Assembly (NCBI RefSeq): GCF_009389715.1 | Contig: NC_052399.1 | Location: 22,701,146-22,765,145 of the forward strand | DNA: 64,000 nt | Origin: Phoenix dactylifera | Taxonomy: Eukaryota > Streptophyta > Magnoliopsida > Arecales > Arecaceae | Direction: 5' to 3' | Part shown: piece after piece, positions 2,853-51,117 of the stretch | How the letters are laid out: every line of letters starts with the position of its first letter | How positions within the stretch are numbered: position 1 is the stretch's first letter | Notes under the pieces: generated by a model | Seen by the model: only the letters and a program-made list of their open reading frames with translations | Databases searched by the model: none | Told to the model about the DNA's origin: nothing | Translations under genes and position numbers: made by a program

Positions 2853-2919
2853 TGTTACGGGGGAACTTAGCCACCATGCCCCACGTGACCGGCACGCGCG
2901 CCCAGAAAGACTACGGCTG

Positions 2920-3195
2920 CCCCTTGATCCAGCAATCCGACCTCGGGTCGGATATCTTCGGCTCCGCAGTCCGACCCCGAGTCGGCTGCCCCTTGATCCA
3001 GCAATCCGACCTCGTGTCGGATATCTTCGGCTCCGCAGTCCGACCCCGAGTCGGCTGCCCCTTGATCCAGCAATCCGACCTCGGGTCGGATATCTTCGGC
3101 TCCGCAGTCCGACCCCGAGTCGGTTGCCCCTTGATCCAGCAATCCGACCCCGAGTCGGTTGCCCCTTGATCCAGCAATCCGACCTCGGGTCGGCA
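2920..3195 (+). repeat. 69-bp tandem repeat in the 5' LTR, followed by 35-bp units
   Basis: Units start at 2920, 2989 and 3058 (period 69), followed by 35-bp half-units from 3127. Each long unit holds inverted pieces such as CCGACCTCGGGTCGG and CCGACCCCGAGTCGG that could fold. The 3' LTR keeps only two 35-bp units, so the 69-bp array expanded in this LTR or contracted in the other. Confidence 0.9.
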
Positions 3196-3438
3196 ATCTC
3201 TTGACAACAACAGACTGTTCTCCTGAGGCACGCCGCGGCCTCCTGCTCCACTACTCCCTGCAACGGCCGAATCCGGCGCTGCCCCACGATCCCCTGTAAC
3301 AACCGTACGAAGCGGAGCTCCACTACGCCCTGCCATGGCCGTACCCGGCGCTGCCCCACGACGCCCTGTAACGGCCATGTCAGTGGCAACCCCATCGTGC
3401 CACACGATGACGAATCCCCAGAAAAATCCCCCAGCCTG

Positions 3439-3448
3439 ATATATATGG
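3439..3448 (+). promoter_or_regulatory. TATA-like box of the 5' LTR
   Basis: GATATATATGG lies about 240 bp before the LTR end and is repeated at the equivalent place in the 3' LTR (about 15023-15032). Position and sequence fit an LTR promoter driving the element on the plus strand. Confidence 0.5.
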
Positions 3449-3686
3449 GGCTGGGGGGAAGGGGGATGGTAAGCAAGATTCTCCATAGCATCATCTTACC
3501 TGCTACCTCTCCTTCTCCTTCGATTCCCTCTAACTTGATCGTCGGAGGGCCCCCACTACCCCAGTGGTGGTGCGAGGCTTGCTTGCAGGTTTTCCGGCGG
3601 AAGGTGGAGCGCAACGAAAGCAATTCAAAGGGAACCCCGTTCACACCGCTGTGCCAATCGTTCTCGGTTTGGACCCCCAGCAACAG

Positions 3687-3704
3687 TTGGCGCTAGAGGA
3701 AGGG
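3687..3704 (+). other. primer-binding site
   Basis: TTGGCGCTAGAGGAAGGG starts one base after the LTR end. TTGGCGC-type sites in this position are common in plant Ty3/Gypsy elements. Confidence 0.7.
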
Positions 3705-3849
3705 ACGGATCTCAGAGCGATCGTAATGGCACGGCGAGGTGGTCGTGGAGCTTTCAATGCTTCCGGTCGCGGGCCTCTCGCGCCACTGGCCGGGAGGCCG
3801 CTGCATCTCCAACACGCTCTCAGCAACACTCCACCGCCCCACCGCCCAT

Positions 3850-5420
3850 TCAGATGGTCGAAGCCGCCCAGTTCGACCAGCTAACCCAGCAGGTTCGCAC
3901 CCTCGCGGAGGCGGTGCAGAATCTGCAGGGTGCGATGTCCCGGGCGCCGCAGCGGGCTCAGGAGCCGCTGCTGCCTGAGCGTTCGCCTGTCCTCCTCAAC
4001 CCGCGCTCCTTCCTCTCCCATGGGGAGGAGCGCCGGCGCGAGGAGGATTCTCGAGCACGCTCCATTCTGCCGGGACCTTCCCACCGGAGCTGCGCGGGGT
4101 ACGAGAGGCGGGCCCGGGCGCGTTCCCAGACCCCCCAGTCCTCGAGGAACCCGCGCTCCAGTCGGTCCCCCTCTCGCCGCTCCTTGTCTCCCACCCACCG
4201 GTCGCGCTCCCTGGACCGGCGGGTGGACGATCTCCACCGACAACTCCAGGTCCTGAAGGGCCATTCCAAAGATCCCTTCGCCGACTTAGAGATCTCCTCC
4301 CAGCCGGCGCTCGCCTCGAGGATCCTGCGGACCCCGAATCCGCCGGGGTTCAAAATGCCGGCGATCGAGCCCTATGACGGGGCGGCGGATCCACGGGATC
4401 ACGTCGAGAGTTTCAGGACCCTTATGCTCCTCCACGGAGCATCAGATCCCCTTCTCTGCAAGGCTTTTCCGGCGACCCTCCGTGGCCCGGCGAGGGCATG
4501 GTTCGCCGGGCTGGAGGCTGACTCAATCCGGTCCTTCGACCAGTTCACTCGCCTCTTCATCACTCATTTCACCGTCAGTAGCCGGCGGCGACTGGTCTCC
4601 GACTCCCTCTTTGATGTCCGGCAAAACGAGGGAGAAAGCCTGCGGGATTATCTTACCCGCTTCAACAGGGCTACGCTGGAGGTCCGGAACCTGAGTCAGG
4701 AGGTAGCTCTTTCAGCCCTGAAGCGTGGCTTCCGGAAGGGCAGACTCACCTTCTCCCTGGACAAACGCCTGCCGCGGAGCTTCCCAGAGCTGTTGTCCCG
4801 GGCGAACCAGTATGCGGACGCCGAGGAGGCGGCCGCCCACCGGAGCAAGGAGGCCGCCGAGATCCCTCAAGAGCTTGGGAAGAAAAGGCGGAAAGAGGCA
4901 CGCCAGAGGAGGAGCCCGACGCCTCAGCGTCGGCGCAGAAGCCCGTCGCCGGCGAAGAACCACGGCGCCCCACGCCCTCGTTCTCCGCCCCGACGTTTTC
5001 ACCGGTACACCCCTCTCCTAACCCCCCGGGCCCAGATCCTTATGGAGATCAAGGGGCGGGAGGACCTCCCGGCCCCGAGACAGATGCGGAGGATCCCTGG
5101 GAAGAGGCCCTCCCGGGCGTACTGCGAGTACCACCGAGACCACGGCCACGACACGGAGGACTGCTTCCAGCTTCGGGACGAGATCGAGGCTCTCATCCGC
5201 CGGGGGCGTCTCGGTCGATATGTGAGCGACCGACGTCCCCCCGCAGACCCGCGTCCGGCCGACCCGGCCCCTCCGGAGCCTCGGGAGCAGAATCGACCCG
5301 TTGCGGGCGTGATCCACACTATCACTGGGGGCTGCCCCCGGCCCGTGAGGAACTCAGGGGGCTCGACAGAGGGTCAGGGGCGGCCGTCGCAAAGAGGCAG
5401 AGGGTCGGCAATGTAATCAC
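3850..5420 (+). mobile_element. gag region of the Tat element
   Basis: The region encodes a protein of about 520 aa. An Arg/Ser-rich N-terminal part precedes a retrotransposon gag domain with cues such as YDGAADPRDH, ARAWFAGL and a tail of helices (residues about 165-330). A C-terminal Cys/His motif of the EYHRDHGHDTEDC type is usual in Tat-lineage gag proteins. In the family, gag forms the cytoplasmic particle that packages the RNA. Confidence 0.85.
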
Positions 5421-9190: not shown

Positions 9191-10272
9191 ACAAAGCCAG
9201 AAAGACAGTTCAAAAAATGTATAGTCCTTTTCATTTCAATAATTCCTGGTCGCAATGGCGTGTTCGTGTGATTACAAAGAATTCCCAGAGGGGGATTGGG
9301 GAGTAAAGAAAGTAAGGAAGAGGTGGGGACTCCGTAGAGTTGAAGATCCGGGATCCCGAACCCTCCACCCGAAGCAGCTGCAATCCCACCGGGCGTGGGT
9401 GCTTCTCCCCGGAGGCGCCATCGACGCCTCACGCAAAAGACGAAGAGCCGGCGCGGACGAAGAAGAAGTGGACGAAGGAGGAGTTCACACTGCTCCTAGA
9501 GGAACGCCACCTCCAAAGGATATTCCGGCCCTCCCCAAGAGAAGGGGAGGGAAGGAATACAAGGGAGAAGAGCGCGAGGAGGCGCGATCCCGGATGAAGC
9601 GTCTGGCGCAGAGCTCAATCGGGAGGTGGGACGGAAAAGAGGGGGGATGTGATCCCGGATGAAACGCCTAGAGCGGAGTTCCACCGGGGAGAATCTCCCC
9701 GTTGATCCCAGATGAAACGGCTAGTTGGCGGAAGTCGCGAGGGGCGCACCTCCCGTTCTTCCGGCAGGGGCTTCCCAGCCACGCACCGGAGAGGAGGTCC
9801 ACGATCCATGGCAACCTGAACAGCTCCGGCTTGGCAGGCTCCACCGCACCTGCCCTTATATTTATAGCCAAACTGTGGCCCCCCGGTCGTTCCGATGCGG
9901 GTGGCTCCAATAAATGCGGGCGCATCGAATCCGGAGCCGTTCCGGCTCTCGAGGCGTATCCTCCCACGACCTCCTAAGCGTCGTTCTCCTTAATTGCATT
10001 CTTCATGCAGGACACTCCGGGCGGCGTGTATCCCACGGCACCCGTATCTCCGTACGCGCTCAAGCCGCATCCGCCTCGAAGAACGCGCGTATCGCGGCCG
10101 CTTAACTGGCACTCCTCGCAAGCAGCAACTGGCCGATCCGATTTTCCAGGTAACGCCTCAATTAGCATTTAATAGCCTTCTGGTGTTCCTCAGGCGACGC
10201 GTCGAGAGGAGGAGAAATACGATCGCAGCTGGCCACGGAGAAACCCCGTCGAGCGGCAAGTGATAGGCGCGC
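9190..10272 (+). other. post-integrase noncoding spacer of the Tat element
   Basis: About 1.1 kb of GC-rich sequence without a recognisable product. The phrase 'GATCCCGGATGAA' or a close variant recurs (about 9586, 9652, 9705), so it contains short diverged direct repeats. It leads into the tandem array at 10273. Confidence 0.6.
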
Positions 10273-11361
10273 GACCAACGAGCGGAATTCCCCGAGGCTC
10301 AGTCCTCGGATGCCAGGCTAACCCGATGATCATCCCGGGAGCAGACTAGCCTGAAGCCCCGACCGGTCGCCTCGGCTTGCGCCAGCCTTGGCCGACCAAC
10401 GAGCGGAATTCTCCGAGGCTCGGCCCTCGGATGCCAGGCTAACCCGATGATCATCCCGGGAGCAGACTAGCCTGAAGCCCCGACCGGTCGCCTCGGCTTG
10501 CGCCAGCCTTGGCCGACCAACGAACGGAATTCCCCGAGGCTCGGCCCTCGGATGCCAGGCTAACCCGATGATCATCCCGGGAGCAGACTAGCCTGAAGCC
10601 CCGACCGGTCGTCTCGGCTTGCGCCAGCCTTGGCCGACCAACGAGCGGAATTCTCCGAGGCTCGGCCCTCGGATGCCAGGCTAACCCGATGATCATCCCG
10701 GGAGCAGACTAGCCTGAAGCCCCGACCGGTCGCCTCGGCTTGCGCCAGCCTTGGCCGACCAACGAGCGGAATTCTCCGAGGCTCGGCCCTCGGATGCCAG
10801 GCTAACCCGATGATCATCCCGGGAGCAGACTAGCCTGAAGCCCCGACCGGTCGCCTCGGCTTGCGCCAGCCTTGGCCGACCAACGAGCGGAATTCTCCGA
10901 GGCTCGACTCTCGGATGCCAGGCTAACCCGATGATCATCCCGGGAGCAGACTAGCCTGAAGCCCCGACCGGTCGCCTCGGCTTGCGCCAGCCTTGGCCGA
11001 CCAACGAGCGGAATTCTCCGAGGCTCGGTCCTCGGATGCCAGGCTAACCCGATGATCATCCCGGGAGCAGACTAGCCTGAAGCCCCGACCGGTCGCCTCG
11101 GCTTGCGCCAGCCTTGGCCGACCAACGAGCGGAATTCCCCGAGGCTCGGCCCTCGGATGCCAGGCTAACCCGATGATCATCCCGGGAGCAGACTAGCCTG
11201 AAGCCCCGACCGGTCACCTCGGCTTGCGCCAGCCTTGGCCGACCAACGAGCGGAATTCCCCGAGGCTCAGTCCTCGGATGCCAGGCTAACCCGATGATCA
11301 TCCCGGGAGCAGACTAGCCTGAAGCCCCGACCGGTCGCCTCGGCTTGCGCCAGCCTTGGCC
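10273..11361 (+). repeat. nine 121-bp tandem repeats inside the Tat element
   Basis: Units begin GACCAACGAGCGGAATT at 10273, 10394 and every 121 bp, with a tenth partial start at 11362. The units are nearly identical. Each holds a CCGAGGCTCGG...CCTCGG inverted patch and is open for 81 codons on the minus strand. That openness comes from base composition, since 121 is not divisible by three and the frame shifts from unit to unit. Satellite-like arrays downstream of integrase are known in Tat-lineage elements. Confidence 0.95.
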
Positions 11362-11374
11362 GACCAATGAGCGG

Positions 11375-11604
11375 AATTTCCTGAGGCCTAACCCTCGGAT
11401 GCCTGGCCTAGCGCCGGAGGAATTTCCTGAGGCCTAACCCTCGGATGCCTGGTCTAGCGCCGGAAGAATTTCCTGAGGCCTAACCCTCGGATGCCTGGCC
11501 TAGCGCCGGAAGAATTTCCTGAGGCCTAACCCTCGGATGCCTGACCTAGCGCCGGAAGGATTTCCTGAGGCCTAACCCTCGGATGCCTGGCCTAGTGCCG
11601 GAGG
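11375..11604 (+). repeat. five 46-bp tandem repeats, related to the 121-bp unit
   Basis: Units start at 11375, 11421, 11467, 11513 and 11559. The 46-bp motif (aatttCCTGAGGCCTAacCCTCGGATGCCTGG) resembles the first third of the neighbouring 121-bp unit (aattCCCCGAGGCTCagTCCTCGGATGCCAGG). It therefore looks like a shortened derivative amplified separately. Confidence 0.9.
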
Positions 11605-11779
11605 AACTTCAAGAGTCAGGAGTCGGCGAGACGCTACCAAGAGTTAAAAAGAGGAAGGACGAAAGTGAAATGAGGAAATACTTTGTTTGCATTAACTTTC
11701 GTTGCATCAGGGCCGAGACCCATACAACATGGCAAAACGCCAACATACAAAGAAAAGAACAAAGAAAAAGTACAGAGGG

Positions 11780-40233: not shown

Positions 40234-42786
40234 TCATGCCCGTAAGGCCAAGAGAGACATGAGTCCGGCACCCAAGAAGAGGGCGATGTAGGAACCAACC
40301 CGGAGGGATGTGCTGCCGTTCTTGAGGCGGTCGAGGAAGTCGGCAGCGACCAAATCCACCAGCGCCATGTAGATCAGGATGCCTGCGGAGATCGAGTCCA
40401 GAAGGCCCTCCGCCGCCATGGCTGTCGGGCTGTCAGGATCGTAAAATGATGCCGCTGAGAGCCCCAGGCCGATCCCTCCAGGTGTTGTCAAGGCAAAGAA
40501 GCACGCCATCACCGCTTCCTTGAGACTGCTAAAACGAGCCTGCAGCAGATGATTACACACGAACAGAGGACCAGCTAAAACTATATATAAGTTGGTAGAG
40601 AATCTTAGCACGGTAATGACGATTAGTCTTACCTGAGAGATGTATGCTCCCAGCGCAAATCCCTCGAAGAACTGGTGGAAGGACAAGGCAGCTATTAGGG
40701 GCCTAATAGTGCATGGGTTTTGTGATACTCCCAAGGATAAGCCTATGGTCACTGAGTGCGAGACAATCCCAAGCTCCAGTATCTGAATAATATTAAAAAA
40801 TCGGATTGTGAATATTAAAATGACAAATAACTTAGTTTAAGGATATGAGTTTGTCATTTATGATAATCACTGCTACGTAACATAATTCCGGCAGATTCAG
40901 GTCTTATTAGCTAGTGATGCTCAAAAGTTGAATCAGCTTCAGTCATTTTAAATTGAAATATTAGTAATTGGTTTACCTTGTTACATGTTAAACAAACAGA
41001 GCATTGATTACCTCCCACCCACCACTCCAATCCATTTTTTTTCCGGAGAAAAAAAAAAAAGAAGAAGAAATGAGCTTTGCATACTCGATGACTTCAACTT
41101 GATCTTGCCGCAATGTGTGCGTGTGCGATTTCTTCTTGCCACAGAAACAGGGTGACTCCCAACTTCATTCAGTGACTTAACATTTAAATACCACATTCGA
41201 AATAAATATTAAATTGCCCGATTCAGCTCTGGATCACTTTCATCAAATTTGTTTTTGGATCCTTTCTTAAAGGATGTAAGCATGTAACTGATTAAATTTG
41301 TATATGGTTATATTCGATCACAATGACTCAATATTCAATAATCAATTCAATAATTGTTAGCTTTCTTTTTTAAAAAAAAAAATCAATAATAATTAGGTCA
41401 CCAACATGACTTTAACGCATATGCCATAGCACATGATTTTATGCATTATAAAGATGTAAAAGACATAACACTTGTACTTAAAAAAAAAAAAAGAAAAAGC
41501 GAAGAGATGATAATTTTCTAAAGAGTGAAAATGGTAATAAGTTAGGGAATGGAATTAACGTTGAATCTTCTCAACATTATAAATTTATACTACCTACCAA
41601 GCAAAGTAAAAAGTAATTACTAATTCACGGCCTATTTAGTATTGCTTTTATTTTTTGTTGTTGCCTTCAGGAAGCGAAGAAGACAAAAGAACTCGATTGA
41701 ACACTAGATATGTACGGTGAAATATTTTTATTTTAAAAATCTAAAATTCTGATGAAAAGATATATTGTTTCTAAAAAAATGAAAATAAAAATTTAAAATA
41801 GCGAAAATTGTGTTCAGGTACTATTTTCAATATAATATTTTATAGATGTATAGAGAAACAAAACAGCCTGTTATTAATAGAATGTTTATCTATGCTCCGA
41901 ACTTTTTATTTTCTGATGGAAAGGAGTTTAAGGCGCCATGAGCTCTTCAAGTCAAGCGATTTATTAACAGAAAAGTATATGCATCAGTATATAAGAAGGA
42001 CTAAAATAACTGAGAACAAGAGTCTGAAAAAAAAAAGAAGAAGAGAGAAGTACAAGATTTGAGCATGAAAAAGACGGCAACTGCAAAAGTGAAGACAGAA
42101 GCCCCTGAACTAAAGAAGAGAAAAGATAAGCGCATGCAACATCCCATATTTGATCGGGCTGTATTAAGCCCATAAACCCTAACCCTTTGTGATACAAGTA
42201 CAGCTCTGGAGTTAGTCGAGATTCACCGCACCTGAGATACGACGACGTGCCGCACGTGCGAAGATACCCCTCCGCCATCCACCTCCCCATGCGCCGCGGC
42301 GTGTGCGTGCACCCCGATGATGTGCATCGCGTCGTCGTTAAACTCGTCGCTCCCTGGTGAGGGTGACCAGACTCCAACCCTCTCCGCTTTCTGCTTCCCC
42401 TTCTCCGCCCCGTGCTTCCGCTCGTAGAACGTCGTTCCGATGAAGTCCAGCGCGAGCGTCCCGAGGGCGGCGACCATCGCCGCAAAGCCCGCGAATGGGA
42501 ACTCAGTCCACGCCCGCGCTGGCATGGCGGCGTCCGCCAGCGACTCCTCCGCCTCGGGGAGCATGTGGACGAAGCCCGTCGCCAGGATCACGCCCGCTCC
42601 AAAGGCCTCGACGAAGGCGAACCCCCCACCGTCGGAGCGGAGGAACCGCTGTCGTCTCCCGGCGAGCGGAATCGCCACGCCGGCGATGCTGGCGACGAGG
42701 ATCGCGGCGATCGCAACCAGTTTCAGGTGCATCGCCGCCTCTTCGTCACGGCATTCTCCATCGCCCGCCACCATGGGGACTTCCAT
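40234..42786 (-). CDS. ZIP-family metal transporter 1, 336 aa, three exons
   Basis: Exons, in gene order: 42786-42232, 40782-40633 and 40539-40234 (555, 150 and 306 nt, in frame, GT-AG). The protein is a plant ZIP divalent-metal transporter, closest in memory to the IRT3/ZIP4/ZIP9 branch. Helices near the N-terminus include [15 protein letters not shown] and [18 protein letters not shown] cytosolic loop carries a short His motif ([12 protein letters not shown]). Helix 4 has [10 protein letters not shown] and helix 5 has [11 protein letters not shown], the His/Glu residues that bind metal. ZIP proteins move Zn, Fe or related ions into the cytosol. The start at [12 protein letters not shown] gives a family-like N-terminus, although the frame stays open upstream to an ATG at 42957. 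It is the tandem paralog of 49778-51117. Confidence 0.93.
40783..42231 (-). other. intron 1 of ZIP gene 1 (1.45 kb)
   Basis: AT-rich sequence with several A or T runs. No element ends or coding signal were seen. The equivalent intron in the paralog is under 100 bp, so it has been expanded here or reduced there. Confidence 0.7.
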
Positions 42787-43114
42787 AGCTTCTTCCTTTC
42801 TCCTTGAGATAAGAATATCGATAGATAAAACAAGGGGTAGAGGAAAGAAGTGGATGTCGTCATTTTGATCACAGAAAGGAAGGTTGAGCTCTGAGAATGT
42901 CGACACCTCCGTCGCCGCTCTCCAGAGAAGGTTGCTAAACGACGTTTTAGGCATCAAATTTTGTCTTCGTTTTTTTTTTTTAAATCCCTCCCCCGCCTCA
43001 GGTGAAAATGGTGGCCATTTTTAAACTTCACGGAATGCTGAGGGTAAGTTCTTCCCCTTGGACCCGTCGGTTAGATTTTTTTGGTTAAATAATGATTAAA
43101 AGTTTTTATACTTT

Positions 43115-43162
<48 letters not shown>

Positions 43163-43515
43163 TGAGAGTTTGGCTTAGTTGGTGTGCGCGATGCCCTCTT
43201 TTCCTAGAGACACGACCTCTCTTCGCGACACGCTTTCTTCCTAGGGACACGATCTCCTTTTTGCGACCGACCTCACATCTGCTGGCTCTACTAATGTTTT
43301 TTCAAACTTTCTTATCAATTTTGACCATTGGATTGATTTTTAGTCACGTCTATCCCGAAAAAGCCTATAAATAGATCTCTACGAATTAGACAGAGAAGAA
43401 TCGAAAGCAGAGAACTTTTATTCTTCCTTTCTACTCTTTTTCTTTCAATCAACGGGCTTGCTGCATACTGATTCTGGGTTCGAAGGCTTCATCCGTGCAA
43501 ATCATTGAGGCAGAA
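42787..43515. other. upstream region of ZIP gene 1, with a (TA)n run and a TATA-like site
   Basis: The first 170 bp probably hold the ZIP leader and promoter (minus strand). A (TA)n microsatellite occupies 43117-43158. Farther right, CCTATAAATAG at about 43365-43375 resembles a plus-strand TATA box. The CT-rich sequence after it is interrupted at 43515 by the solo LTR. Confidence 0.5.
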
Positions 43516-45322
43516 TGTGAGACCCTGGAACTGAGCTGGTCCAGTGGACCGGCAGCCCCAAGGTTTTGGCCTCACGTGCGTCGCACGTGAGGGGGCGTGA
43601 AGAAGGGGAGATCCGAAGAAGCCGGCATCTGGTTGTTTTTAGGGCTTCTCCTCCTCTCGTTGAAGCCATTGGAAGAGGAGCCGCAAACCCAAGTCCCTTC
43701 CTGGTTGGGGGTTCTTCTTCCTTGGGCTGCCGGCCGAGAGAGAGGGAGAGAGAGAAAGAGAGAGCCGAGCCATAGCACGGACGACCCTTTCCTCCTCTAT
43801 TTGCCGCCAGAAAGAAGCCGTCGGACCATCGTCGGGGCCGAGGTAAGGACTCCCAATTTTCCTCCCTTCCTTTCGTGATGTTTAGCCATGATTTATTGTG
43901 GTTTTTGAGCCGATCAATCGCCGGAAATTGGGTTCAAAATGGGAGCTCTATTGGCCCGAGAACACTCGCCGCCGGCCGTGTTCGCTGCTGCTAGCCGCCG
44001 GGGGTGGTCGGTTTTGCTCCGCCACCTCCTGCCGCCGTCAAGGCCGGCCACCGTGGCCGCCTTTGGGATCGATCGAGGAGGGAAGAAGACGAAGAAGGGG
44101 GGTCACGGGCCCCTGTTTGGTCAAAGAAGAAAAGAAGAGACAAGTCGGGAGAAGAGGGAAAGAGAAGAAGAAAAAGAAAAGAAAAGAAAAGAAAAGAAAG
44201 AAAATGAAAAGAAAGAAAAAAAAGAAAAAAAAAAAGAGAAAGGGGGGTGGTTTACGGGTATGAACCCGAACCCAAACCCAAACTCAGGGTGCTAGGCACT
44301 TCTGCAGGGTCGGCCATGGGAAAATATTAAATTTAAGTTTTTATATACATTGTGATGAATTTTAAAAGAAAAATATGATTTTTGGATATTAGGTTCTGCG
44401 AGGAATTTGTGAGATTAATTGGATTTATTGGGAATTGCGTTTAATGTAAGTTATGAACTGCCTTCTCTAGACTCTTCATTTATATAATATTATTTTTGTA
44501 TCAAATAAATTGTTAATGAATTTATATGTGATTTATGAATTTTACGAGATGATGATTTGAATGAAAATGGATATGTGAATTGGAATAACATTTTTTGGAT
44601 ATAATTACTGTTCTTGCATCGTATATGTATATTTAGATCGGATTATGATATATCTATTTGCTACAAAAGAATTTTGATGTTCATCAGATTTAGAACTCTC
44701 AGCCTGACTATGTTCTGGACCCTGCCAATTGGGGGTTATGCATTGGCAATTCTGGCCCCACCACAGGGTATAAGTGTGGTATTCTGGCCCACTCCGCAGG
44801 GTATAAGTGCGGTATTCTGTCCCATTCCGCAGGGTATAAGTGCGGTTCTGTTTCTGGCCTAGCCACAGGGTATAAGTGTGGTCGTAGTTAAAGGCTGATG
44901 AGATGAATGTGATTTGTTTCGAATCAGATTTATGATTATGTATATGGATATTTGAAAGATACATATTTCAATGAATTTGTGTTTGAAAATGAATTGATTA
45001 TGTTATTATGTTGATTCATCGTAATTTGTGTTCATATTTTATGTTAGTATATGAATTGACTAGTTAAGGTGTTTATTACTTACTCGGCTGTCTAGTTCAT
45101 TATACAATTTCTTGTTATTTTTGCAGATTCCGAGAACTAACCTATCAGGGATTTAAAATCGGAGAGCGACTAGAAGAACTGAAGCACAAGTTATCCTAGA
45201 TTAGGCTTTATTTAAATTGATGTTTTATCTTTATTGTTCCGCTGCGTATTTAAAACTGTGAGACTATATAATTTGGATCAGTCAATGGAGTAAGATTGCA
45301 TTTATTTCAGTTGAATTATTTT

Positions 45323-45368
<46 letters not shown>

Positions 45369-45475
45369 GAGATGTTTGGTTAAGATGCTTTGCATGCTCG
45401 TGGAGAGAATTTCCTACTGGTGTGCGGCGGTTGGCGTGGACCCCCGGCTCGCAATCTCGGGCCGGGGGCGTGACA
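43516..45475. mobile_element. solo LTR of an unidentified LTR retrotransposon (about 1.96 kb)
   Basis: The element begins TGTGAGACCC and ends GGCGTGACA. It is flanked by the perfect 5-bp duplication CAGAA (43511-43515 and 45476-45480), with no internal coding region or second LTR. This is what LTR-LTR recombination leaves. Inside are a GA/AAAAG-rich purine tract (about 44110-44245), a tandem hairpin array (44720-44881) and an (AT)n run (45325-45365). The family cannot be named from an LTR alone. A large LTR suggests a Gypsy-type parent (inference). Confidence 0.85.
44720..44881. repeat. array of five tandem hairpins in the solo LTR
   Basis: Four units of the form CC(A/G)CAGGGTATAAGTG(T/C)GG start at 44761, 44794, 44827 and 44863. 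An earlier variant with stem GCCAAT...ATTGGC lies at 44725-44747. The spacers share a TTCTG(g/t)CCC-like word. In units 1 and 4 the stem is CCACA/TGTGG and in units 2 and 3 it is CCGCA/TGCGG, so both arms change together. Confidence 0.85.
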
Positions 45476-45480
45476 CAGAA

Positions 45481-49777: not shown

Positions 49778-51117
49778 TCACGCCCAGATTGCGAGGGCCG
49801 ACATGGAGCCAGCGCCAAGAAAAAGCGCCATGTAAGACGCCACCTGAAGCCTAAGATTGCAGCTCATCCTCCTGCTCAGAAAATCCGCTGCAATTAGATC
49901 AACCAATGCCATGTAGATGAGAATGCCGGCCGAGATCGAGTCCAGTATCCCCTCCACCACCAGCGCCCTCGGGCTATTCGCATTGTAGAACGATGCAGCA
50001 CCCGCTCCAACGCCGATGCCGGTCGGCGTCGTGATCGCAAAGAAGCACGCCATCAGCGCCGCCGACAAGTTCCTGAATTGTGCCTGAAACAATACCAACA
50101 GCACCAAATGAGACCCATGCTTAGAAGAGCAAGACTAATTAACTACGTAGCAATTACCAACCTGGGAGATGCATCCTCCCAGTGCGAAGCCTTCGAAGAA
50201 TTGGTGGAAGGATAGAGCAGCAATGAGAGGCCTTATGGTGCAGGGACTCTGCGATACCCCGAGTGACAACCCAATGATCACTGAGTGGGACACGATTCCG
50301 AGTTCCAGTATCTGACCACATCCAAGAATCAAATAAGCACACCCCTCCTTCCCAAAAGTTTAAGATTTAGATGAAGGAAGGGATCAAAGATTGGAGTCCA
50401 TCGAACCTGGGAGACGACCACGTGGCGCACGTGAGAAGAGACCTCGCCCTCGTCCTCGTGGGCGTGGCCAGGGCCGCCCTCCCGCCGCGCTGGGCCATCG
50501 CACGCCCCGTGCTCGTGCGGGTGGCTGTGCCGATGCGCCGCCGCGTGGGCGTGCATCCCGACAATGTGCATCGGGCTCTTGACGTTGTCGGCCGCCGCCG
50601 CCTCCGGCTCCGGCGCGATGGAGATGACGGTGATACCTTCCTCGGCCGCTGCCGCCGCCGCCGCAGCAGCAGCAGCCGCAGCGGCTGACTTGACCCCCAT
50701 GGCCTCCTCCCGGTGCTTCCGCTCGTAGAACTGGGTGCCGACAAAGTCGACCACAAGGGTCCCGAGGGCCGCCGTCATCGCCACGAAGCCGGAGAACGGG
50801 AACCGCCGCCACGGCGACTCCGGGAGGCAGGGGTCCGTCAGCGCCGACTGGGCATCGTGGAGCATATGGACGAACCCCGTCGCTAGGATGACGCCGGCCG
50901 CGAAGGCCTTGGCGAAGACGAAGAGGCTGCCGTCGGTTCGCAGGAATCGCCGCTTGCGCCCCACCAGGGGGATCGCCACGCCGGTAATCCCCGCCACCAG
51001 GATCGCCACCATCGCCACCATCTTCAGCCGCAGCGCCGCCTCGTCGTCCCGGCACTCGTTCGCCGCGCGGTCGGTGCAGCTCGCCGTCGCCATCGATGCT
51101 AACATCGTTCCTTCCAC
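49778..51117 (-). CDS. ZIP-family metal transporter 2, 388 aa, three exons
   Basis: Exons, in gene order: 51117-50407, 50311-50162 and 50083-49778 (711, 150 and 306 nt, in frame, GT-AG). The protein is a ZIP transporter paralogous to 40234-42786, with identical exon-junction phases and the same length for exons 2 and 3. Conserved parts include [51 protein letters not shown] and [16 protein letters not shown], all matching the IRT3/ZIP4 style. The central loop is much longer than in the paralog. It contains about 14 alanines in a row (around residue 145) and a rich His cluster ([20 protein letters not shown] then GHAHEDEGE) that could bind metal. A second in-frame ATG four codons downstream is an alternative start. 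Confidence 0.94.

Follow-up and report, generated by a model that had tools for sequence, protein, structure and literature searches.

Five tandem inverted repeats in a date palm solo LTR: an inherited array within a probable leader intron

A solo LTR in the genome of the date palm, Phoenix dactylifera, contains a row of short inverted repeats whose stems differ from unit to unit on both arms at once. A preliminary description of the locus had taken these coordinated differences as a sign that base pairing, in DNA or RNA, mattered to the parent element. What do the differences record, and what might the array do?

The array and its host element

The locus was studied in a window of 64,000 nucleotides (the whole stretch of DNA analyzed), in which the LTR, its flanks and the repeat units lie as follows.

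43511..43515, no strand: left target site duplication, CAGAA, read from the sequence
43516..45475, plus strand: solo LTR, 1960 bp, ends TGTGAG...GTGACA, the same termini as LTRs of elements at other loci
44723..44748, plus strand: unit 0 (type 0), TGCCAAT / ATTGGCA, 7-bp arms, 12-nt loop, perfect inverted repeat
44760..44780, plus strand: unit 1, ACCACA / TGTGGT, 6 bp, loop GGGTATAAG, perfect inverted repeat
44794..44812, plus strand: unit 2, CCGCA / TGCGG, 5 bp, loop GGGTATAAG, perfect inverted repeat
44827..44845, plus strand: unit 3, CCGCA / TGCGG, 5 bp, loop GGGTATAAG, perfect inverted repeat
44863..44881, plus strand: unit 4 (terminal), CCACA / TGTGG, 5 bp, loop GGGTATAAG; an outer G.T pair extends it to 44862..44882 (GCCACA / TGTGGT)
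45476..45480, no strand: right target site duplication, CAGAA, read from the sequence

The TG...CA termini, the short flanking duplication and the presence of a single LTR locally (self-comparison revealed no second copy in the 64,000-nt window) confirm the assignment of the host sequence as a solo LTR. Close to its start (43570-43592) lies a palindrome-like sequence, CCTCACGTGCGTCGCACGTGAGG, with two CACGTG boxes, detected as an inverted self-match. Just upstream of the LTR, an open reading frame on the minus strand (42223-42957) matches the ZIP zinc transporter family (Pfam PF02535, 3.6e-22), and a stretch at 50704-51057 is 73% identical to this region, perhaps a second copy of the gene. The window also contains a long tandem array with a period of about 121 bp (10272-11610), whose larger shifted self-matches are 93-97% identical.

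The five inverted repeats occupy positions 44723-44882 and agree with their first description: the CCACA/TGTGG stems of units 1 and 4, the CCGCA/TGCGG stems of units 2 and 3, the constant GGGTATAAG loop and a first unit that differs in sequence yet keeps a stem. The third stem pair thus reads A/T, G/C, G/C, A/T from unit 1 to unit 4. The period had been given as 33-36 bp; Tandem Repeats Finder (TRF) returned a period of 33 (4.0 copies, score 148) and the GGGTATAAG units start 33, 33 and 36 bp apart. The core, allowing up to two mismatches, was found four times, always exact, as against 1.04 expected, and at least four occurrences were seen in 2 of 100 shuffles. When the whole array was shuffled, its count of six inverted repeats was reached in 1.3% of cases, whereas shuffling one 33-bp unit produced a comparable inverted repeat in 34%. 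The tandem array therefore exceeds chance; the hairpin in the unit that was duplicated need not. The latter figure agrees with a reading in which the array is a neutral minisatellite, a chance inverted repeat that was duplicated and then carried by the element without function. We consider this possible, if rather doubtful, and return to it below.

Two other identities were discarded. The 33- and 36-bp spacings are divisible by three and the array is spanned by open frames, as might befit a coding repeat; the spacings in other copies (31, 32, 34 and 35) are not so divisible, which speaks against this, and the minus-strand frame across the array has no Pfam match. Likewise, a search for known RNA families gave three Rfam matches, each far below its gathering score and none of them overlapping the array. 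Among the papers listed by searches of an open-licence library, no title or abstract opening describes such an array.

Relatives were sought in the whole genome, which comprises 2391 contigs and 773,078,369 bases. There are 883 occurrences of the 13-base core CAGGGTATAAGTG, as compared with 7 of a reversed control, and a search with a 181-base query yielded 557 candidates; the 40 that were scored were all at least 97% identical. Array occurrences are often paired on the same strand, 2.2-4.8 kb apart. At the four loci that were read (L034, L040, L043 and L055) the pairs are the LTRs of short elements: downstream of the 5′ LTR comes TGGTATCAGAGC, which we take to be a primer-site motif, and immediately before the 3′ LTR stands a purine-rich tract, presumably the polypurine tract. 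Outer 5-base duplications are present at L034 (CTTTT), L043 (ATCAG) and L055 (GTAAC). The sequence between the LTRs measures about 300 bases in L043, about 580 in L034 and about 2.8 kb in L055, where no gene was obvious by eye; nor was pol seen by eye in any of the four internal parts. At one locus only, L040, positions 2917-3906 match Retrotrans_gag (1.1e-18) and Ty3_capsid (4.8e-15), identifying a Ty3-type Gag with what we take to be zinc-knuckle spacing; an in-frame stop precedes the domain-matched stretch. With its paired LTRs, primer site, polypurine tract and Ty3-type Gag, the parent family passes as Ty3/Gypsy and, in the four elements read, is Ty3-like and non-autonomous or gag-only. 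It may resemble the Tekay/Del chromovirus lineage.

In lacking a visible pol while keeping primer-site and polypurine-tract-like motifs, these elements are reminiscent of TRIMs and other non-autonomous elements. L040 has three LTRs and two internal parts, the stop-bearing gag lying in the first, an arrangement found in tandemly arrayed TRIMs in the available part of PMC4717578. Membership in that class was nevertheless rejected: the same part of the source sets a limit of less than 1500 bp for the whole element, the palm LTR alone is 1960 bp long, and L040 keeps gag.

Changes in the two arms

If pairing had been maintained, a change in one arm should be accompanied by a matching change in the other. 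At pair 3 this is what exact units show genome-wide: 367 are A/T and 327 G/C, as opposed to 23 A.C and 28 G.T (694 of 745 match). In 31 four-unit arrays that are in register, unit 1 is A/T in 25, G/C in 3 and mixed in 3, unit 2 is G/C in 29, unit 3 is G/C in 27 and unit 4 is A/T in all 31. The stem type is thus fixed by the position of the unit, so that the genome-wide match represents one inherited difference seen many times rather than repeated covariation. The preliminary description had itself reckoned that simple gene conversion between two unit types would count against it, and the positional rule largely bears this out. The two-arm difference from which it argued is real; inherited unit types explain most of it.

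It had also suggested weighing single-arm against paired changes in other copies of the LTR. Among 41 exact G/C-type units genome-wide with a T in the 5′ arm at pair 2, the matching A is present in 5 and absent from 36, a balance opposite to that expected from pairing. These 36 units keep G, giving a T.G wobble in sense RNA; the single-arm excess therefore counts more against pairing in DNA than in RNA. A 3′ A thus accompanies a 5′ T in 5 of 41 units, and in the fetched loci it accompanies a 5′ C in 2 of 57 (Fisher p 0.11).

Unit-level counts exclude loci L002-L030, which had been picked for their identity to the window array; the count of 48 distinct arrays includes them. The 40 relative regions had to contain the exact core or a 19-mer and came from the first 100 places listed, which favours well-kept arrays and the first contigs. 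Counting identical units within a locus once reduced 315 GGGTATAAG-type units to 281, from 78 loci. In these, the odds ratios between partner sites are 5.0 at pair 2, 2.2 at pair 4 and 15.8 at pair 5. Sites that are not partners co-change as well in the same units (odds ratios of about 2-6), because old copies hold more changes. Within the old-family subset the values are 3.3 at pair 2, 8.3 at pair 5 and 0.8 at pair 4, alongside 1.1-2.7 for non-partners. A model that takes mutation load into account gave a partner log odds ratio of 1.25 (0.67 to 1.89) for GGGTATAAG-type units; slid controls in the same model gave 0.71 (-0.05 to 1.26) and 0.50 (-0.11 to 1.14). There is a modest excess of matched changes in this unit type that speaks for pairing, but the intervals of the controls overlap that of the partners. 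In terminal units (71 distinct, from 78 loci) each of the five inner pairs is Watson-Crick in 54 to 66.

Type-0 units behave differently. The sample of 107, used as such in the load model, was reduced to 98 by removing 9 mis-registered pieces. In these 98 no association between the arms was found: 693 of 784 cells pair, the shuffle mean being 689 (p 0.19), and shuffling within loci gave p 0.37. The claim that pairing mattered gains from the persistence of both hairpin types in older LTR families (see below) and loses from the absence of covariation in type-0 units.

One-arm changes lean toward wobble pairs in several counts. At pair 2, T.G outnumbers C.A by 44 to 21 in the 281 units, with pairs 3 and 4 near equality; the 48 arrays have 37 G.T and 19 A.C; and type-0 units have 200 G.T and 50 A.C, as compared with 204 and 55 when the arms are shuffled. 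The skew goes in the direction expected for sense RNA, yet it resides in how the arms are composed and may reflect mutational context. The methylation context of the sites could also produce a skew of this type.

Two further comparisons carried little weight. An apparent excess of double changes in the 48 distinct arrays (14, with 3.5 expected) was set aside, since 7 of the 14 are the unit-1 type difference, caused in part by five-unit arrays being out of register; moreover, nearly all changes are transitions, so that changing both partners is enough to re-form a pair. Comparing shared with private changes in LTR pairs was uninformative, there being only 2 shared stem changes. Altogether, the two-arm changes constitute weak evidence of selected pairing. 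A side observation concerns L032, where the second GGGTATAAG unit on the minus strand has ACTCCAC...GTGGAGT round the loop, a shifted 7-bp stem.

Older families, conservation and folding

Searches with diverged copies, which led to the older families, scored 40 of 553, 40 of 440, 26 of 26 and 40 of 279 candidates, and the old-family regions (20 + 20 + 15) were taken from the listed matches. In one older family, a longer spacer separates unit 0 from the GGGTATAAG units after it, which are of the same kinds. The number of GGGTATAAG units per locus ranges from one to about six; among the old-family regions L102 has none and L099, L105 and L106 have one each. The family with 279 candidates (40 scored; loci L096, L107 and L111-L125) has amplified the type-0 unit instead, in the form TGCCAGTG-GGGGTTATA-CRTTGGCA, with a period of about 36 and 3-8 units per fetched stretch. 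A single GGGTATAAG-type hairpin follows the type-0 array in six of seven loci, the seventh stretch ending short of that place. Each hairpin type has therefore been amplified in a different LTR family, and relatives about 64-75% identical still carry both. As a feature of this LTR lineage, the array is genuine and inherited.

Persistence at such distances, and amplification in separate families, argue against the neutral minisatellite. Its variable copy number in both unit types, on the other hand, is what such a repeat would display, and so is its conservation. Across LTR copies the array scores 0.94-0.95 and its LTR neighbours 0.89-0.96 (44296-45135), with no conservation peak at the array. 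Site diversity in 39 arrays is 0.17 and 0.14 in the arms and 0.11 in the spacers, some five-unit arrays being out of register at unit 0.

Within the GGGTATAAG loops, TATAA is nearly invariant in the 39 arrays (diversity 0 to 0.10). Both TATAA and CCAAT are motifs of promoters, and the TATAA of the loops, which appears in some old copies as TATAAATA, has the CCAAT-containing unit 0 next to it. The array might on these grounds be a repeated core promoter, a second and internal one giving a shorter, unspliced RNA. The spacer TATT is as invariant as the loop TATAA, so that mutation bias may account for both, and type-0 arrays have GGGGTTATA in place of TATAA; we regard an internal promoter as quite improbable. 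A precedent is BARE, in which one of two TATA boxes gives such an RNA; according to the available part of PMC3735527, the two boxes supply separate RNA pools.

Folding predictions gave little sign of structure in the window array. Sense RNA of 44715-44890 is no more stable than its dinucleotide shuffles (z +1.03); the z values for antisense RNA and single-stranded DNA of the same region are -0.97 and -0.78. In the sense ensemble, the predicted probability of the hairpin is at most 0.08 for units 0-3 and about 0.75 for unit 4; on the antisense strand that of unit 0 is about 0.9. The comparison was extended to 12 arrays with 60 shuffles each. Sense z ranged from 0.03 to 1.19 in four young arrays and from -0.30 to -1.03 in three old GGGTATAAG arrays, while five type-0-rich arrays gave +0.57, -1.03, -1.88, -1.89 and -3.48. 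By these predictions the type-0 arrays may be somewhat structured and the window array not.

A probable leader intron and the role of the array

Alignment of LTR copies drew attention to splice-like sites on either side of the array, which would delimit an intron:

43843..45126, plus strand: probable leader intron, GAG|GTAAGG ... TTTTTGCAG|ATT, enclosing the array; splice-like sites conserved in LTR copies

The donor GT is present in 25 of 26 aligned LTR copies and the acceptor CAG (45124-45126) in 24 of 26. Large parts of the first 700 bases vary among these copies, with a mean identity of 0.63 at positions 250-700; the top conserved hexamers of the 5′ region are the overlapping AGGTAA and GGTAAG (43841-43847), at 0.987 and 0.974. 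T-rich tracts ending in AG occur at matching places after the array in L053, L054 and L039, and one occurs in rearranged sequence in L051. Upstream, AGGTAA[GA] is found twice within the fetched stretch of L051 and is absent from the fetched stretches of L053, L054 and L039. Composition does not help the intron reading: the candidate intron is 39% GC and 32% T and the part upstream of it 60% GC, but the downstream part (37% GC, 34% T) is equally T-rich. No genome sequence matched the joined-exon pattern with up to three mismatches, a result to be read in the light of the fact that spliced RNA need not reach DNA. Together the sites suggest that the array probably sits in a leader intron of the LTR, about 245 bases before its end, a feature that is new here.

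Splice sites have been found in other plant LTR retrotransposons; those of the palm are predicted. In the available parts of the sources, splicing of BARE yields spliced and unspliced RNA pools through a 104-nt intron at the gag end (PMC3735527), and spliced and unspliced pools are also described for EVADE (PMC8892269). These are the nearest precedents seen. The palm intron would differ from that of BARE in lying wholly in the LTR leader.

Given a real intron and a transcription start upstream of it, the array would be part of the transcript and might have a role in RNA. Hairpins in the retained leader intron could single out unspliced RNA for packaging or export: unspliced genomic RNA would keep the array, spliced mRNA would lack it, and Gag zinc knuckles, for instance, might bind the GGG-containing loops. 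The position of the array between conserved donor-like and acceptor-like sites, the latter shared by L053, L054 and L039, is consistent with this, as are the Gag of L040 with its presumed zinc knuckles, the modest surplus of matched changes in one type of unit, the wobble-type skew and the sense z of -1.9 to -3.5 in three of five type-0-rich arrays. L043, too, has about 300 bp between its LTRs and yet ATCAG on both flanks; if it was mobile in this short form, most of its cis-signals must lie in the LTRs. Against these points stand a window array that folds like its shuffles, type-0 units without covariation, near-equal genome-wide counts of A.C and G.T at pair 3, the lack of a spliced DNA copy in the genome and the putative status of the intron itself. 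On balance we consider RNA hairpins of this kind unlikely. The fuller version strikes us as a long shot: hairpins in a leader intron would label the unspliced RNA to be packaged, splicing would thereby divide messenger from genomic RNA, and different LTR families would have answered the same need by amplifying one hairpin type or the other.

The interpretation we tentatively favour, with confidence somewhat short of even, is that of an inherited, tandemly amplified palindromic cis-element acting mainly at the DNA level. A 33-36 bp palindrome-bearing segment would have been duplicated in the leader-intron part of a Ty3-like LTR, and the A/T and G/C stem variants would have become fixed at set positions through duplication and copying between units. 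Decay after insertion, mostly by transitions on either arm, would then have left mostly single-arm changes and a few that seem paired. This cis-element reading is favoured by the assignment of stem type by position, the similar numbers of A.C (23) and G.T (28) at pair 3, the ratio of 36 to 5 at pair 2, the lack of association in type-0 units, the sense fold z of +1.0 for the window array and the absence of extra conservation of array or stems. It is weakened by the partner excess in GGGTATAAG-type units, which a DNA repeat alone does not explain, and by the wobble-type skew of one-arm changes in several counts.

As a DNA element the array may act as a repeated protein-binding site, enhancer- or promoter-like, by analogy with other LTRs. 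Short tandem repeats within an LTR are also present in the U3 of tobacco Tnt1, where the 31-bp BII box is one, and in that of retroviruses; the palm units differ in containing short palindromes and in lying inside a probable LTR intron. In the available part of PMC3601003, such repeats of other LTRs are regarded as enhancer- or promoter-like cis-elements. G-quadruplex motifs in plant LTRs, tested for an effect on expression according to the available part of PMC5838962, are likewise DNA-structure motifs, the palm array consisting instead of hairpin-type inverted repeats.

The locus carries a caution: tandem repeats that bear palindromes imitate covariation, and most of what is seen here comes from two inherited unit types. 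Of greater interest is the position of the array between splice-like sites that are conserved amid diverged flanks. If these sites are used in splicing, an intron inside the LTR would keep the translated RNA of this family apart from the RNA that is packaged.
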